From Acidobacteriota bacterium (GTDB taxonomy: Bacteria > Acidobacteriota > Terriglobia > Terriglobales > Acidobacteriaceae), in NCBI GenBank assembly GCA_019243475.1, contig JAFAUE010000176.1, positions 1 to 33,541 of the forward strand: a stretch of 33,541 nt of DNA, written 5' to 3'. The position numbers and the translations under genes were made by a program. Within the stretch, counting starts at the first letter, position 1. The number at the start of each line of letters is the position of its first letter. Below are positions 11,027 to 18,149 of this stretch, piece after piece. The notes beneath the pieces were generated by a model. It was given only the letters and a program-made list of their open reading frames with translations. It did not search any database and was not told the origin of the DNA.

Positions 11027-12268
11027 TCACCTTGAGCTCTCGCCTTTTGCGCTGTCGAAGAGAAGGGTCAGGCTATCCGGGCCGGGGTGATAGAGGACAA
11101 ATCGATTTCCCTGATCGCCGAAGGCGCGGAATAGAAGCTCGCCGCGCCCATTGCCGCTGGCGTCCACCGCGTCAACGATCTGCAGTCGGGGATAGACATC
11201 GAGGTGCGTGTCGTCGGTAACCTGGGTAAAGATGCGACGCAGGCTTTGATCGATTTCCTCCCACGCTGCAACGGTAACGTACTTCTTCACCCCATCGATC
11301 ATCGCGCTCGCCGCATAGACGACGATCGGCGCGTTATTGGCGTTCACGTCAAAGACGCCAAAACTGGGATTGCTAAGCTCTACCTCGGGTGCCGCGGCAG
11401 CCGGTGCAGAGGAGCGTGCGCGCGAAGTCCGCGGACTTTTTGCAGGTGCGGCCGCCTGCGGCTTTTTCAATTTCGCCAGCTCGGAGCGCACCAGCTTCTC
11501 CATATCCTCGCGAATCTGCGTCAGCTCACCGCTCTTGTAGTGCGGCGCGAAGGAGTGCGGCTCAGGCCCGCCTGCGTCGGAAACGGCGGGCAGCATGTGC
11601 GTCTCGGGCAGCGTGAACTGGGGCGCAGGCGCGCTGACGGATTGCTGAGGCTTGCTCTCGCTCGCGCTATGCCGCCGTAGCGTCGGCCGCTCGGGATCGC
11701 GATCAATGTTGGTGAGCACAGCATCTGTCTGTTCTTTCGGAGCGGGCGGAGGAGGCGTGCCGCGACGTAGCTTGGGGCGATCGTCTTCACTGCCGGACTT
11801 CGACGCGGCTGCTGTGTCGCCGGCGCGCGTAGTCTGCGCTGTTGACTTGTTCATCTGCACGGTGATCGCCCCCTTGGGTTCAAAGAGGCCGGTCCCATAC
11901 CAGACGTCGTCTTTCTCGCGCGCTCCGCCGACTGTGAAGGTGCCGATCGGCTCGTTGCTCTTTAAGACGTCATACACAACCCCGGAATCGACAGCTAAGG
12001 GCTCCGGTTGGGTCTCGTAGAGATTGGCGTCGTAGTAGCGTCCTTCTACGAGAACGGCGATCGGAGTGAGCACCGAGGCATGCGGAACCGGCTTTGGACT
12101 GTCTCCATTCCAGGAGACCACGGCGATTGCGCGCGGGCCGCTTTGTTTCTTCCTCTGCGCCAACAGCGAAGGAGCAGCGGCCATAGCAATTGTCAGAAGC
12201 GCTGCCAGCGTCCAGACGGTGGTGCTGTATAAATGTTGAAAGCGTTTATTCAAGGACAAACACTCCAT
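11027..12268 (-). CDS. Exported protein of unknown function, Pro/Ala-rich middle
   Basis: The product is up to 413 residues with a signal peptide (hydrophobic TLAALLTIAMAAAPSLLA, likely cut before Gln38). The mature N-terminal part (~40-135) is predicted globular; the middle (~140-300) is rich in Pro, Ala, Ser and charged residues with a short coiled-coil-like stretch (QIREDMEKLVRSELAKL); the C-terminal ~110 residues (from VELSNPSFGVFDVN) look like a second globular domain. I do not recognise the family. The ATG at 12268 overlaps by two bases the ATG of the divergent peroxiredoxin gene and has no ribosome site. A TTG at 12253 with GGAG nine bases upstream is a reasonable alternative and keeps the signal peptide. 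The stop sits 2 bp from the inverted-repeat arm. Confidence 0.7.
   Translation of the reverse strand: MECLSLNKRFQHLYSTTVWTLAALLTIAMAAAPSLLAQRKKQSGPRAIAVVSWNGDSPKPVPHASVLTPIAVLVEGRYYDANLYETQPEPLAVDSGVVYDVLKSNEPIGTFTVGGAREKDDVWYGTGLFEPKGAITVQMNKSTAQTTRAGDTAAASKSGSEDDRPKLRRGTPPPPAPKEQTDAVLTNIDRDPERPTLRRHSASESKPQQSVSAPAPQFTLPETHMLPAVSDAGGPEPHSFAPHYKSGELTQIREDMEKLVRSELAKLKKPQAAAPAKSPRTSRARSSAPAAAAPEVELSNPSFGVFDVNANNAPIVVYAASAMIDGVKKYVTVAAWEEIDQSLRRIFTQVTDDTHLDVYPRLQIVDAVDASGNGRGELLFRAFGDQGNRFVLYHPGPDSLTLLFDSAKGESSR
11035..11063. repeat. Dispersed repeat copy A (second copy in the asnB leader)
   Basis: AGCTCTCG, then CCTT, then the 17-mer TTGCGCTGTCGAAGAGA. The same 8-mer and 17-mer occur at 22409-22433 without the CCTT. 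Here the repeat encodes the C-terminal residues FDSAKGESS of the unknown exported protein on the minus strand. Confidence 0.55.
12228..12234 (+). promoter_or_regulatory. Candidate -10 box of the peroxiredoxin gene
   Basis: TATAAAT lies 32 bases before the peroxiredoxin ATG, inside the signal-peptide codons of the divergent gene. No good -35 partner is seen. An AAGGA (12252-12256) ten bases before the ATG is the probable ribosome site. Confidence 0.35.
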
Positions 12269-12752
12269 GGAAATTGGCGACCAGGTACCGGAGACGAGCG
12301 TCCCGAATCAGGACGGGAAGCCGGTGAGTCTTAAAGACTTTCGCGGCAAGCCCGTTGTGCTGTTCTTCTTCCCCAAGGCCGACACGCCGGGCTGAACGAT
12401 CGAAGCATGCGGCTTTCGCGATCAATTCGCCAAGCTGCAACGTGCCGGCGCGGTCGTGCTGGGCATCTCCAAAGACTCACCTCAGGCACTCAAGAAGTTT
12501 CAAGATAAATATAGCCTGCCCTACACCTTGCTCGCTGACGAGGACAAGAAGCTCTGCGAAGCCTTCGGTGTACTGAAAGAAAAAAACATGTATGGCCGCA
12601 AGACCATGGGAATCGAGCGGACCTCATTCCTCATCGACGACAAAGGCAAGATCGCGAAGATCTTTTCCAGGGTAAAACCCGAAGGTCACGCTGAAGAAGT
12701 GCTGGCAGCGATGAAGAAGTACGTCAAGCGTCCTGATGGCTCGTTCGTCTGA
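12267..12752 (+). CDS. bcp: Bcp/PrxQ-type peroxiredoxin with in-frame TGA at the peroxidatic cysteine (probable selenoprotein)
   Basis: Read through the TGA at 12393-12395, the frame from ATG 12267 to the stop at 12750-12752 gives 161 residues, the normal size of Bcp/PrxQ thiol peroxidases, which reduce H2O2 and organic hydroperoxides with thioredoxin-type donors. Upstream of the TGA are DFRGKPVVLFFFPKADTPG; downstream come TIEACGFRD, GISKDSPQALKKFQDKY, LPYTLLADE and ERTSFLIDDKGKI, all typical. The TGA is codon 43, exactly where the family has the peroxidatic Cys (TPGCT); the resolving Cys48 (U-x4-C) is kept. There is no other stop or frame change. Selenocysteine at this site is known in other bacterial peroxiredoxins, and a hairpin follows the TGA. 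The alternative is a TGC-to-TGA nonsense mutation or base-call error. An ordinary ORF scan would give only a fragment starting near 12456. The Sec machinery is not in this window. Confidence 0.85.
12398..12423 (+). promoter_or_regulatory. Candidate bacterial SECIS hairpin after the peroxiredoxin TGA
   Basis: GATCG (12398-12402) pairs with CGATC (12419-12423) and AAGC (12403-12406) pairs with GCTT (12412-12415). This leaves an apical loop ATGCG (12407-12411) and a 3-nt TCG bulge on the 3' side; an alternative pairing gives a single bulged U. The loop holds G residues and lies 12-16 bases after the TGA, within the short distance expected of bSECIS elements read by SelB. The fold was done by eye and the loop is not identical to the E. 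coli fdhF element. Confidence 0.5.
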
Positions 12753-12848: not shown

Positions 12849-15800
12849 TTATTTACCGGCTGAGTTGTAAATTTGCTGAACCTCCCCCGCTGAGAGAGCG
12901 CGATTGAAGATCTGCAAATCGTCGATGCTGCCCGAATTGAACTCTGACGAGCCTCCGCGCGAAAACAGATAGAGCACGTTGCTGCCGAATGCATTTGTAT
13001 TCTCTGCCGAGAGATAGTGCTGGGAGGGCGTTTGCAGAACGCCGTCGGTGTACAGCGTAACTTCGCTGCCTGCAGGTTGACTCTTGTCGAAAACAGCGGC
13101 GAAGTGGTGCCAAACGCCTGAGGACGGCTGGGCGTAGCAGTTTATGTTGTAGCCGGCATCGCCGCGTTCCCCAACCATCAAACCATTGCAGCTGCTGTCG
13201 TCGGGGAAGAAGCCGAATCCAGTAGTCGAATTATTGAAATTCGTACTGTTCTCAAACAGTGTAGTACCGCCGGCCGTCGAGTATATGCGTTTAGCCCAGA
13301 GTGTCACAGTTACTGCTTTTGTAGTGCTCAGATTAAGTGCGGGGGTTTTCGCGTACTGCTTGGAGGCACTCGCTGCGGTGATGGCATCTCCCGCCTCTCC
13401 CGCAGTCCAAGTGACTCCATTCACCAGGGTGATGCTATGTCCGTTGCCGGAGGAATCGACTGCTGTGGTTCCGGCCCCATCATCGAAGGCCCAGCGCCCC
13501 ACTAAGCCGGAAATAGTCGCGGACACCGTCAAACCCGTGCTCCCGCTGATCGATCCCGCAGCCGCTTGTATCGTAGTACTCCCCAATGCCAACGCAGTGG
13601 CGAGTCCCGAACTGGAAATACTGACAATGTTGTTCGCGGAGGAAGTCCAGACAACTGAACTTGTCAGGTTTTGCGAGCTGCCATCGGTATAGGTGCCGTT
13701 GGCGGTGAATTGCAGCGAAGCGCCGTTCACGATCGAAGAATTTGCCGGGGTAACACTGATCGAGACCAGTACGGCGGGAGTGACCGTCAGAGTTGTCGAC
13801 CCGGTGATCGAACCTGAGGCGGCCTGAATGCTGCTAGTGCCAACACCTGTGCCGGTGGCCAACCCAGAAGCTGAGATGGTCGCAACGGTCGTCACTGCCG
13901 AGCTCCATTTGGCAGTGGTAGTCAAATTCTGCGTGCTTCCATCCGTGTAAGTCCCTGTGGCCAGGAACTGTTGCGTGAGGCCTTTGGCAATCGACGGACT
14001 TGCCGGAGCAACAGCAATCGAAACCAGCGCGGCGGCGGCCACGGTGAACGTGGTTGAACCAGTGATTGCGCCGGACGCAGCCTGGATGGTGGAGCTCCCA
14101 GTTGCAACCGCGGACGCGAGTCCCGAACTGGAAATGGTGGCTGCAGTTTGATTACTGGAAGACCAGACCACAGAATTCGTCAAATCCTGAGAGCTCTGAT
14201 CGCTGAAAGTGCCGGTCGCCGTGAACTGCTGAGTCGTACCTTTTGCGATGGAAGAATTCGCTGGGCCTACAGCAATCGAAACCAGCACCGGAGCCGTTAC
14301 CGTGAAAGTAGTTGAGTTGTTGACGGTTCCCAACGCGGCTTGAATACTCGTGCCGCCGAGACCGACAGCAGAGGCGAAGCCTGTGTTCGTAATGGTTGCG
14401 ATTGAAGTAGCGCTTGAACTCCAAGCGACGGAACTGGTGATGTCCTGCGTACTGCCATCGCTATATGTTCCCACCGCCGTAAATTGCTGAGTCTTCCCTT
14501 TGGGCAACGACCCGTTGGCCGGTGATATGGCAAGCGAGACAAGAGTGGAGGTTACGTTCAAGTTCGTGGTGCCGTTAATCTGGCCGGATGCAGCTGCAAT
14601 CGTCGTGTTGCCGACGCCTAACGCCGATGCCAGTCCTGTGCTGCTGATCCCGGCCACTGAAGTGTTGCTCGAGGACCAGGTCACAGAGGCACTCACGTCT
14701 TGAGTGCTGCCATCGCTGAAGGTGCCAGTGGCTGCGTATTGCTGACTGCCACCCTTGGCGAGCGAAATGTTCGCCGGCGTGACTGCCAGCGACAGCAAGA
14801 CCGGCGCGGTGACGCTGAAATTCGTCGATCCTGAAATCGAACCGACTGCAGCTTGAATACTGGTGTTCCCAATGCCAGCTGCGGTCGCTAGCCCGGCCGC
14901 GGTGATAGTGGCTACCGCCGTGATCGAGCTGCTCCAAGCGGCTGAACTCGTGAGGTTTTGAGTACTTCCATCACTGTACGTTCCGGTCGCGAGGAATTGC
15001 TGCGTTTTGCCTTTGGGCAGCGAAGCGTTCGCAGGTGTAACAGCAATGGAGACGAGATTTGCACCGGTATAACTGTAAATTGATTGTACGTCAGAGCTGG
15101 ACAGCACTCGATTATAGATTCGGAGGTCGTCGATAGTGCCGGCAGTGAACTCTTGTGTCCCTCCCCGGGAAAACACATAGGTAGCGTTGTTCCCGAAGTT
15201 ATTGGAATTTGTAGTCGTAAGGTAGTTCCGTTTTGGGGCTTGTATGACTCCATCAACATATACCGCTGTCTCGGCGCTTCCAGTTTGACTCTTGTCAAAA
15301 ATGACGGCAAAGTGATGCCAGGTCGTAGAGCTTGGTTGAGCGTAACAATTTACGCTATAACCGTTGTCTCCCTGTAACCCGACTAGAATCCCTGAACAGG
15401 ATGAGTCGTCTGGGAAAAACCCGAAACCCGTAGTTGAGTTATTGAAGTTTGCTGAGTTCTCGAACAGAGTATGCCCGCCGGCTGTTGAGTAGGTGTGGGT
15501 CAGCCAGAAAGTCACCGTTACAGCTTTGGTGGTGCTCATGTCGATTGCCGGGAGAGCGATGTAGTCGTTTGTGCCATGCGCGGTCACGGCAAACTGACCG
15601 ACCTTCCCTGTGCTCCAGGAAATCGCATTCACGAGGGTCGCGGCGTGGTTATTTCCCGAAGAATCGGACGCCTTCGTTCCTGCGCCTTCATCGAACTTCC
15701 AATAGGCGAGCAAGCCCGGCGTAGCGCCGGTAACGACGAGGCTAGTTGAGCCGCTAATGGATCCCAGCGTTGCCTGAATCGACGTATTTCCGGCGGCAAT

Positions 15801-18149
15801 GCAGGTTGCGAAGCCAGACGAGGCGATGGTTGCAACTGCGGTATTTGTCGAACTCCATGAAACTGAGGCGGTCAGATTCTGCGTGCTGCCATCGCTGAAT
15901 GTCCCAGTGGCGACGAACTGCTGTGTGCTGCCCTGAGCCAGGGACGCGTTTGCCGGGGTTACAGCGATCGATTGAAGAATCGCGCTGGTGACGGTAAGGC
16001 CTGTAGAACCGGTGACTCCTCCGAGGCTGGCTTGGATTGTTGTCCCGCCGCCGACGCCTCCAATGGCGAGACCGGTGGCGTTGATAGTGGCGACGTTCGT
16101 GTTACTGGAAGACCATGTTGCGGAGTTAGTAAGGTTCTCTTTGCTTCCGTCGCTGAAAGTACCTGTGGCAGTAAATTGCTGCGAAGCGCCAGGCGAGATG
16201 GATGAATTAGCGGGAGTGACTGCCAACGAAACTAATCCAGCAGGAGTTACAGAGACTGTGACGCCTGCCGACGGAGTTTCTATGTTGACGCTGTCATCTA
16301 CGGCTCTGCTCTTTATAGTGGCCGAACCCAATACTGTGGGTGTCCAGGAGTAGGTCCAGTTCTGCTGACCCGTTGCCCGGTGCCACGTGCTACCGCCGTC
16401 AACGGATACTTCGACGACTGCGACTATTCCCCCACCGGTATCTGCGGCGGTCCCAGTTATGGTGAGCGCGCTGCCGGTATGCACCGTTGAGCCGTTGGTT
16501 GGAGAAGTTATGCTGGACGCAGGCGGCGCTGTATCTGTCGAGGAACTGGCAGCACTTAATCCTGGTTGAAGCGTCGCCGGCTGCGAACCCATGTCCGCCA
16601 GAATGTTGACCGTTGCCTGCTCCAGGTTGATATCTGGCGGCGGCGGCTGGAACGAAAATTGATCGTGATGGGAATCCAGCGCCCAGGACCACTGAACGGT
16701 CCCCGCGCCAAAGACAAGGGCGCCGCTGGCAGCGCGATAGAGCGCGAGGTTATGAGTGGCAGTGCCGTTGCCCTGGGTGGCGCCGTAATCGAGAAGGAGA
16801 TCTGGACTCACGTCCAGCGTGGTTGAAGAGAGATCGATCAAGCCTGCCGGACGGAAACCGTTGTCGAGTTCTTCGTCCCATTCATAACCTAGAGTTCCAT
16901 TTCCGGAAGTGTATGTGGCGCCGGGCGAGAGTTTCGCCACCGCCGTGTTTCGCCAAAATCTCAACTTGCTGTAAGCAAAAGGAACGGCGATCGCGTCGTT
17001 CCGCTGAGCGTTTACGTAGGAGATGGTTCCAGACAATGCGTTTTCTGGAAAACCGCCGTCCGCTGGAGGACTGAAGGTAGGATCGCGCCAAGTGCCGGTC
17101 CAGGTGGGTGGGTCAAGAGGATCCAGCCGGGTTCCGGAGAGGGTCTCCTTGTAACAGACTAGGGTGCGGTAAGGGGTATTCGAACCATCGATGCTATTTT
17201 CCCAGCGCGTTTTCCAGAAAATTTCATTGCCACTGAAGAAACCGAGATGAACACCTGCGGCGAGGGCAGCGGAAACGTTGGAGCGTTGGTTTTTGGACCA
17301 ATATTCGTCGTGCCCGACCGATAAAAAGATTTGGTGCCCGATGATCAGACTCCCATTGCGATCTGTATCTATGCCTGTCGAATAACTGAGGTCATACCCA
17401 TTGGCTTCGAGCCATCGAATCATCGGATATTCGGCACTCATGAACCAACTCAATGGATTTCGCTCTCGAGTGACGAACGGTCGGTTGTAACTCACCTTGT
17501 AAGCGCGGGTGGTTGGATAGGACGGGGCGTAAAAACTGTCGCCTCCGTAGTCGTTGTACGCTTGCCAGGTGGCATCGGAGGTCTGAAAAAGTATCTGCGA
17601 ACCATTATTGTCCGCGCGCACGATGAAGACCATGTGGTTTGCGCCGCCGTTGTCGGAGCGCACCAGACGTGCGATGTAGATTCCCGAAGTGGCATCAGGG
17701 GGCACAGCCCAGGATGCAGATTCGCTCCAGTTCCCGCAATCTATCAGAAGGGTCGATGCGTCCTTCAGGCAGGCCGGCTGGCTCTGCGGCAGCGTCACTG
17801 AAGGAAGAATGCTCGCGATTTTTCGCGCGCCCATCCCTCCGTAATAACCAATGCGATAAATGTCGATACGGTACGCGCTGGCGTTGGTGTTGACTTTGAA
17901 ATGTACCGTGGCGCCCTGGTTCACGCTTATGTCGGTTGCAAATCCCTGAATACTCGAGTCGCCGGTCTGGGTCGAGCCAAGGTCCCATTCACTGGCAGGA
18001 TTGCCTGTCTTTGAGTTCTCACAGGCGATCGCATTGGCGGCCGGAGGTGTGCATCCGAATACTTGCGCTGTTGCGGGCTGAGGCCGCGATAGCAACGCTA
18101 ACGCAAATAAGAAGAGAACGAACGACTGAAGTAGGGGAAGTGACTTCAC
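12849..18149 (-). CDS. Giant exported protein: N,N-dimethylformamidase-beta-like domain, Ig-like, eight Big_2 repeats, two LamG domains
   Basis: The 1766-residue product starts at GTG 18149, with GAGG five bases upstream, and has a signal peptide (SFVLFLFALALL, probable cut before Gln29). Residues ~60-525 match the C-terminal domain of the N,N-dimethylformamidase large subunit (IDIYRIGYYGG, LSVGHDEYWSKNQR, HLGFFSGNEIFWKTRW). An Ig-like domain (~545-635) follows, then two Big_2 modules (~639-812), a LamG/concanavalin-like domain (813-~1028, starting LLAYWKFDEGAGT), six more Big_2 modules (~1030-1548) and a second LamG domain (1549-1766, LVGRWAFDDGAGT). Each Big_2 unit is ~85 residues and opens with L-x-S-I/L-A-V-x-P-A. 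It is probably surface-attached or secreted; amidohydrolase activity of the first domain cannot be judged from sequence alone. No LPXTG or C-terminal sorting signal was seen. It is divergent from the transporter gene. Confidence 0.88.
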   Translation of the reverse strand: MKSLPLLQSFVLFLFALALLSRPQPATAQVFGCTPPAANAIACENSKTGNPASEWDLGSTQTGDSSIQGFATDISVNQGATVHFKVNTNASAYRIDIYRIGYYGGMGARKIASILPSVTLPQSQPACLKDASTLLIDCGNWSESASWAVPPDATSGIYIARLVRSDNGGANHMVFIVRADNNGSQILFQTSDATWQAYNDYGGDSFYAPSYPTTRAYKVSYNRPFVTRERNPLSWFMSAEYPMIRWLEANGYDLSYSTGIDTDRNGSLIIGHQIFLSVGHDEYWSKNQRSNVSAALAAGVHLGFFSGNEIFWKTRWENSIDGSNTPYRTLVCYKETLSGTRLDPLDPPTWTGTWRDPTFSPPADGGFPENALSGTISYVNAQRNDAIAVPFAYSKLRFWRNTAVAKLSPGATYTSGNGTLGYEWDEELDNGFRPAGLIDLSSTTLDVSPDLLLDYGATQGNGTATHNLALYRAASGALVFGAGTVQWSWALDSHHDQFSFQPPPPDINLEQATVNILADMGSQPATLQPGLSAASSSTDTAPPASSITSPTNGSTVHTGSALTITGTAADTGGGIVAVVEVSVDGGSTWHRATGQQNWTYSWTPTVLGSATIKSRAVDDSVNIETPSAGVTVSVTPAGLVSLAVTPANSSISPGASQQFTATGTFSDGSKENLTNSATWSSSNTNVATINATGLAIGGVGGGTTIQASLGGVTGSTGLTVTSAILQSIAVTPANASLAQGSTQQFVATGTFSDGSTQNLTASVSWSSTNTAVATIASSGFATCIAAGNTSIQATLGSISGSTSLVVTGATPGLLAYWKFDEGAGTKASDSSGNNHAATLVNAISWSTGKVGQFAVTAHGTNDYIALPAIDMSTTKAVTVTFWLTHTYSTAGGHTLFENSANFNNSTTGFGFFPDDSSCSGILVGLQGDNGYSVNCYAQPSSTTWHHFAVIFDKSQTGSAETAVYVDGVIQAPKRNYLTTTNSNNFGNNATYVFSRGGTQEFTAGTIDDLRIYNRVLSSSDVQSIYSYTGANLVSIAVTPANASLPKGKTQQFLATGTYSDGSTQNLTSSAAWSSSITAVATITAAGLATAAGIGNTSIQAAVGSISGSTNFSVTAPVLLSLAVTPANISLAKGGSQQYAATGTFSDGSTQDVSASVTWSSSNTSVAGISSTGLASALGVGNTTIAAASGQINGTTNLNVTSTLVSLAISPANGSLPKGKTQQFTAVGTYSDGSTQDITSSVAWSSSATSIATITNTGFASAVGLGGTSIQAALGTVNNSTTFTVTAPVLVSIAVGPANSSIAKGTTQQFTATGTFSDQSSQDLTNSVVWSSSNQTAATISSSGLASAVATGSSTIQAASGAITGSTTFTVAAAALVSIAVAPASPSIAKGLTQQFLATGTYTDGSTQNLTTTAKWSSAVTTVATISASGLATGTGVGTSSIQAASGSITGSTTLTVTPAVLVSISVTPANSSIVNGASLQFTANGTYTDGSSQNLTSSVVWTSSANNIVSISSSGLATALALGSTTIQAAAGSISGSTGLTVSATISGLVGRWAFDDGAGTTAVDSSGNGHSITLVNGVTWTAGEAGDAITAASASKQYAKTPALNLSTTKAVTVTLWAKRIYSTAGGTTLFENSTNFNNSTTGFGFFPDDSSCNGLMVGERGDAGYNINCYAQPSSGVWHHFAAVFDKSQPAGSEVTLYTDGVLQTPSQHYLSAENTNAFGSNVLYLFSRGGSSEFNSGSIDDLQIFNRALSAGEVQQIYNSAGK
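13511..15060 (-). repeat. Six tandem ~255-bp units encoding Big_2 Ig-like domains
   Basis: Unit starts on the minus strand, marked by the VTPAN-type motif, fall near 15060, 14805, 14545, 14287, 14024 and 13770, about 255-262 bp apart. Protein similarity is clear while third-codon positions differ, so the copies are not very recent. Confidence 0.8.
15725..16240 (-). repeat. Two further Big_2-encoding units
   Basis: Two more copies of the same ~255-bp module begin near 16235 and 15978. They are separated from the other six by the first LamG-type domain (about 15061-15713). Confidence 0.75.

Follow-up and report, generated by a model that had tools for sequence, protein, structure and literature searches.

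Selenocysteine (Sec)-containing peroxiredoxins are among the known selenoprotein families (PMC1088965; PMC1794560; review PMC13188914). The Sargasso Sea selenoproteome, published in 2005, included 43 genes for a Sec peroxiredoxin of COG1225 with the motif TxxU, the second largest previously known selenoprotein family in those data (PMC1088965). The main text of a 2006 study of bacterial genomes gives twelve Sec-containing peroxiredoxins and five Cys-to-Sec events, and counts four selenoproteins in three families, not named there, for the Acidobacteria (PMC1794560). By 2016, 91 Sec-containing peroxiredoxins had been recorded in 78 organisms (PMC5029168). Prx-SUH, a further member of the superfamily, is also listed as a selenoprotein (PMC13188914).

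The window analysed here is a stretch of 33,541 nucleotides from a bacterium of the Acidobacteriaceae (contig JAFAUE010000176.1, assembly GCA_019243475.1). Its genome (G000) and those of five congeners (G001-G005) are the six genomes of what we call the window genus. The window carries a prxQ/bcp gene with an in-frame TGA at codon 43. We regard it as very nearly certain, on comparative grounds, that this gene is functional and that the UGA would be decoded as Sec by way of SelA, SelB, SelC and SelD, guided by a hairpin in the coding sequence downstream.

The gene shares with the Sec peroxiredoxin of COG1225 (which we take to be Bcp) the COG itself, the TxxU active site and Sec at the peroxidatic position; it differs in organism and sequence, and the window genus and its Sec relatives have unlike downstream hairpins. 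Cys-type Bcp/PrxQ proteins (for example PDB 5enu, 3gkn and 5iiz) are homologous over the full length and have the same active-site motif, but carry a peroxidatic Cys instead of Sec and have no UGA. PrxU (NF040737) and Prx-SUH (NF045827) belong to the same superfamily; the window protein is weakly similar to both but falls outside them, since it scores 40.8 bits against a cut-off of 270 for the former and 41.9 bits against a cut-off of 298 for the latter. A reading of the sequence alone had proposed a probable unannotated selenoprotein. Its Sec interpretation is supported, but its novelty was overstated: the Sec peroxiredoxin of COG1225 has been recognised since 2005 (PMC1088965) and acidobacterial selenoproteins have been counted since 2006 (PMC1794560). 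With the former reported in 2005 and counted again in 2006 and 2016, the window prxQ is of an already known selenoprotein kind and not a novel system.

The prxQ/bcp frame and its in-frame TGA

The prxQ/bcp gene lies at 12267..12752 on the plus strand. Translation gives 161 codons followed by a terminal stop that is also TGA, and the sole internal stop is the TGA of codon 43 (12393..12395; context KADTPG-*-TIEACGFRD), so that the frame is intact from ATG to stop apart from this codon, as the sequence-only reading had described it. A possible ribosome-binding site (AAGGA, 12252..12256, plus strand) was noted by eye 10 nt upstream of the ATG; a search for a sigma-70-like promoter for prxQ/bcp found none. 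Beyond the gene, at 12849-18149 on the minus strand, is an open reading frame of 1766 residues that encodes DMFA2_C and LamG-like domains together with eight Ig-like stretches of the Big_2 type.

When read through, the 161-residue product is a full-length Bcp/PrxQ (Pfam AhpC-TSA, 3.9e-42; NCBIfam PRK09437 [NF006960], 170.5 bits, above the cut-off of 140). Solved bacterioferritin comigratory proteins align with it nearly end to end, and the TGA coincides with the cysteine of their TPGC motif, which places it exactly at the peroxidatic position (TPG-U-T), as had been claimed. The motif PKADTPG-U-TIEAC fits the pattern PxxxTxxC(U) with a second Cys of the 2-Cys type. Comparison of orthologues points to the TGC of codon 48 (12408..12410, plus strand) as the candidate resolving Cys; it follows codon 43 at a distance of five residues (U-TIEA-C) and not of the four first proposed. 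This UxxxxC spacing is that of 2-Cys PrxQ. The product is predicted to be a thioredoxin-fold peroxidase in which the selenolate of Sec43 would attack peroxide to give a selenenic acid, Cys48 would resolve this to a Se-S bond, and the enzyme would be regenerated from the Se-S form by thioredoxin or a reductant like it. We infer this catalytic cycle, as we do Sec insertion itself and the exact SECIS of the window genus; the Sec-type product may be a more reactive peroxidase.

Among orthologues from 52 related genomes, codon 43 is TGA in 29 and a Cys codon (TGC/TGT) in 23, with TAA or TAG in none of the 52. All six genomes of the window genus have TGA, the five congeners included, and because of this the TGA is neither a chance nonsense hit, as the sequence-only reading had argued, nor a sequencing error. 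Within the genus, third codon positions account for most of the substitutions, ahead of the TGA as well as behind it. Between G000 and G002, dN is far below dS both upstream (0.06 and 1.29, respectively) and downstream of it (0.07 and 0.77, respectively): purifying selection acts strongly on the part of prxQ that follows the TGA. In a set of 80 public loci, 11 have TGA at codon 43; most of these are in records titled as acidobacteria, and the others in records titled as Dehalococcoidia and Krumholzibacteriia. These nearest named relatives also point to the Acidobacteriota as the group of the window's organism.

Selenocysteine machinery and alternative readings of the UGA

The G000 draft assembly (4.18 Mb in 512 contigs, 88% complete) contains selA (contig C461, 553 bits against a cut-off of 268), selB (contig C107, 373.6 bits against 242) and selD (contig C313, 368.9 bits against 125). 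The last of these (L211, C313:1393-2313, minus strand) has one in-frame TGA and encodes a SelD that is a selenoprotein itself (KAAG-U-ASK); throughout the genus and family its gene shows a bSECIS hairpin of the typical form. In G000 this hairpin (GUCCAGC-GGU-GCUGGAC) lies about 20 nt past the UGA and has the usual G-first loop; the SelB of this genome should therefore read the common hairpin type.

Neither the Rfam model nor searches by sequence and pattern turned up a tRNA-Sec in this incomplete assembly, and the best eight matches to the model coincide with ordinary tRNAs. All five congeners have a tRNA-Sec above the cut-off, with anticodon UCA according to ARAGORN; the four copies that were aligned are near-identical. 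The flanks of the gene vary between congeners, and a synteny search led from the flank of the G002 copy to G000 contig C392, where no tRNA-Sec is present. (On the same contig, inspection by eye showed GATGGGATATCCCAT palindromes repeated in a short cluster at L231 1860-1950.) With the assembly 88% complete and in 512 contigs, and the gene present in all five congeners, we read its absence from G000 as assembly incompleteness. The call for selA, selB, selC and selD in this genome is thus answered for three of the four genes, with selC located in the congeners, and the suggestion of a Sec-decoding acidobacterium is upheld. Over the wider set, 28 of the 29 genomes with a TGA-type prxQ have three or all four of the sel genes, and all eight genomes credited with no sel gene have a Cys codon in prxQ (Fisher p 0.0006, kinship ignored); in these counts tRNA-Sec matches of about 50 bits were taken as elongator tRNAs without a match-by-match check.

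A pseudogene, produced by a recent nonsense mutation at the catalytic codon, would account for the single in-frame stop, and the genome does have a second Bcp-like paralogue that is free of stops (contig C52, 42% identity). The TGA is, however, common to six species, most of which are separated by dS of 0.7 or more; the codon is always TGA and never TAA or TAG, selection persists beyond it, and Sec machinery is present. Conservation of the TGA together with the dN/dS pattern refutes this explanation, to which we give practically no credence. It is scarcely less improbable that a suppressor or recoded tRNA inserts Cys, Trp or some other residue at the UGA. The lack of a detected tRNA-Sec in G000 would fit such decoding, but prxQ itself terminates in TGA, the genome has selA, selB and a Sec-type selD, the tRNA-Sec genes of the congeners have anticodon UCA, and the site is an invariant Cys in other homologues. 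Decoding as Sec is by far the better account of codon 43.

Candidate SECIS hairpins

Published bSECIS rules require a G in the first two loop positions, a loop of 3-9 nt and an upper stem of 4-16 bp, with a spacing of 16-37 nt and an MFE at or below -7.5 (PMC13188914). In the window genus, a putative SECIS hairpin lies at 12408..12439 on the plus strand (nt 16-47, counted from the U of the UGA). Its stem pairs nt 16-23 with nt 40-47, with inner pairs 26-27/37-38, and its loop is GAUCAAUUC, opening with a G at nt 28 (12420). In each of the six species it is predicted to be more stable than synonymous recodings are on average (p 0.005-0.08 per species); there is little covariation, with a single compensatory pair. 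The values of -16.4 kcal/mol, 24-nt spacing and a 9-nt G-first loop are obtained only if an internal loop is allowed. A strict search for an uninterrupted bSECIS in the genus gave only a weak 4-bp stem that was not significant, with a long G-first loop solely in G005, and an Rfam scan around prxQ returned no match.

Past the UGA, most Sec relatives outside the genus have a different hairpin at nt 13-32, of the form GCGUGCGG-GUU-CCGCGACGC, whose G-first loop lies 17 nt on. This hairpin is absent from Cys orthologues: the mean folding energy of the region is -10.4 kcal/mol in the UGA relatives vs -4.0 kcal/mol in the Cys forms (Mann-Whitney p 3e-7, kinship ignored), and the difference is mostly due to synonymous codons, such as GGG for GGC and GCG for GCC. 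In the window genus, unexpectedly, this family hairpin is missing; the codons there are of the Cys type (GCC/GCA, GGC, GAT), and the genus has instead the longer hairpin described above. One Cys relative, G017, has a hairpin similar to that of the window genus.

Switching between Sec and Cys

A tree of 51 orthologues, built with the active-site residue masked, requires about eight changes between Sec and Cys, of which at least four are forced by well-supported branches. A single grouping of the family's Sec forms (G020 left out) fails the AU test (p 0.024). The window genus is placed with a clade of Cys forms, most of them lacking Sec machinery, though support for this position is not strong (94/80).

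The gene may be a genuine Sec gene that arose by an independent Cys-to-Sec gain in the window genus, with a newly formed SECIS, and not by inheritance of the Sec form found across the family; this is compatible with Sec decoding as set out above, and we hold it as a serious but somewhat doubtful possibility. The missing family hairpin with Cys-type codons in its place, the grouping with the Cys clade and the rejected single grouping of the Sec forms all favour it. Set against these are the weakly supported sister position, the equal fit of an ancestral Sec followed by losses and SECIS turnover, and the similar hairpin of G017, by which that of the window genus could be a coincidence of coding or a fossil. 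We put at just short of an even chance the broader proposal that in the window genus PrxQ either turned into a selenoprotein or remained one, with a SECIS peculiar to this lineage that replaced the hairpin of its Sec relatives or arose independently of it, and that the PrxQ proteins of this class, with their repeated Sec/Cys switches, form a natural series along which the origin of a SECIS is traceable.

The second Cys also varies. It is replaced by Arg, Ser, Asn or Ile in 12 of the 29 Sec-type proteins, all from other genera (L031, L190-L195, L200, L202-L204, L206), which suggests that these may be 1-Sec enzymes. Only 3 of the 23 Cys forms lack it (Fisher p 0.03), an association that is lost in a phylogenetic pair test with at most three informative pairs.

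Two other TGA-containing peroxiredoxin-like sequences were observed in G000. A second probable selenoprotein of this type (AFTGG-U-EKEM) is encoded at L217 2592-2969 (contig C493:6591-6968); its TGA is kept in all six genus genomes and in most of them is followed, from about 16 nt past the UGA, by a hairpin of up to 9 bp. A peroxiredoxin-like match at contig C74:8143-8577 has both an internal TGA and a TAA, and may represent either a copy in decay or yet another gene that contains a TGA.

Sec decoding is common in this large acidobacterial group (selB in 48 of the 61 genomes searched), and Sec-type PrxQ is conserved through the window genus and widespread in related genera. The gene is easily missed, as standard gene calling would truncate or drop this antioxidant enzyme. 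The chief interest lies in the divergent SECIS and in the repeated switching between Sec and Cys in the class, and not in the Sec itself. The mix of both forms in close relatives, including several Sec forms without the usual second Cys, makes this a tractable set for studying the origin of a SECIS and what a peroxidase gains from Sec.
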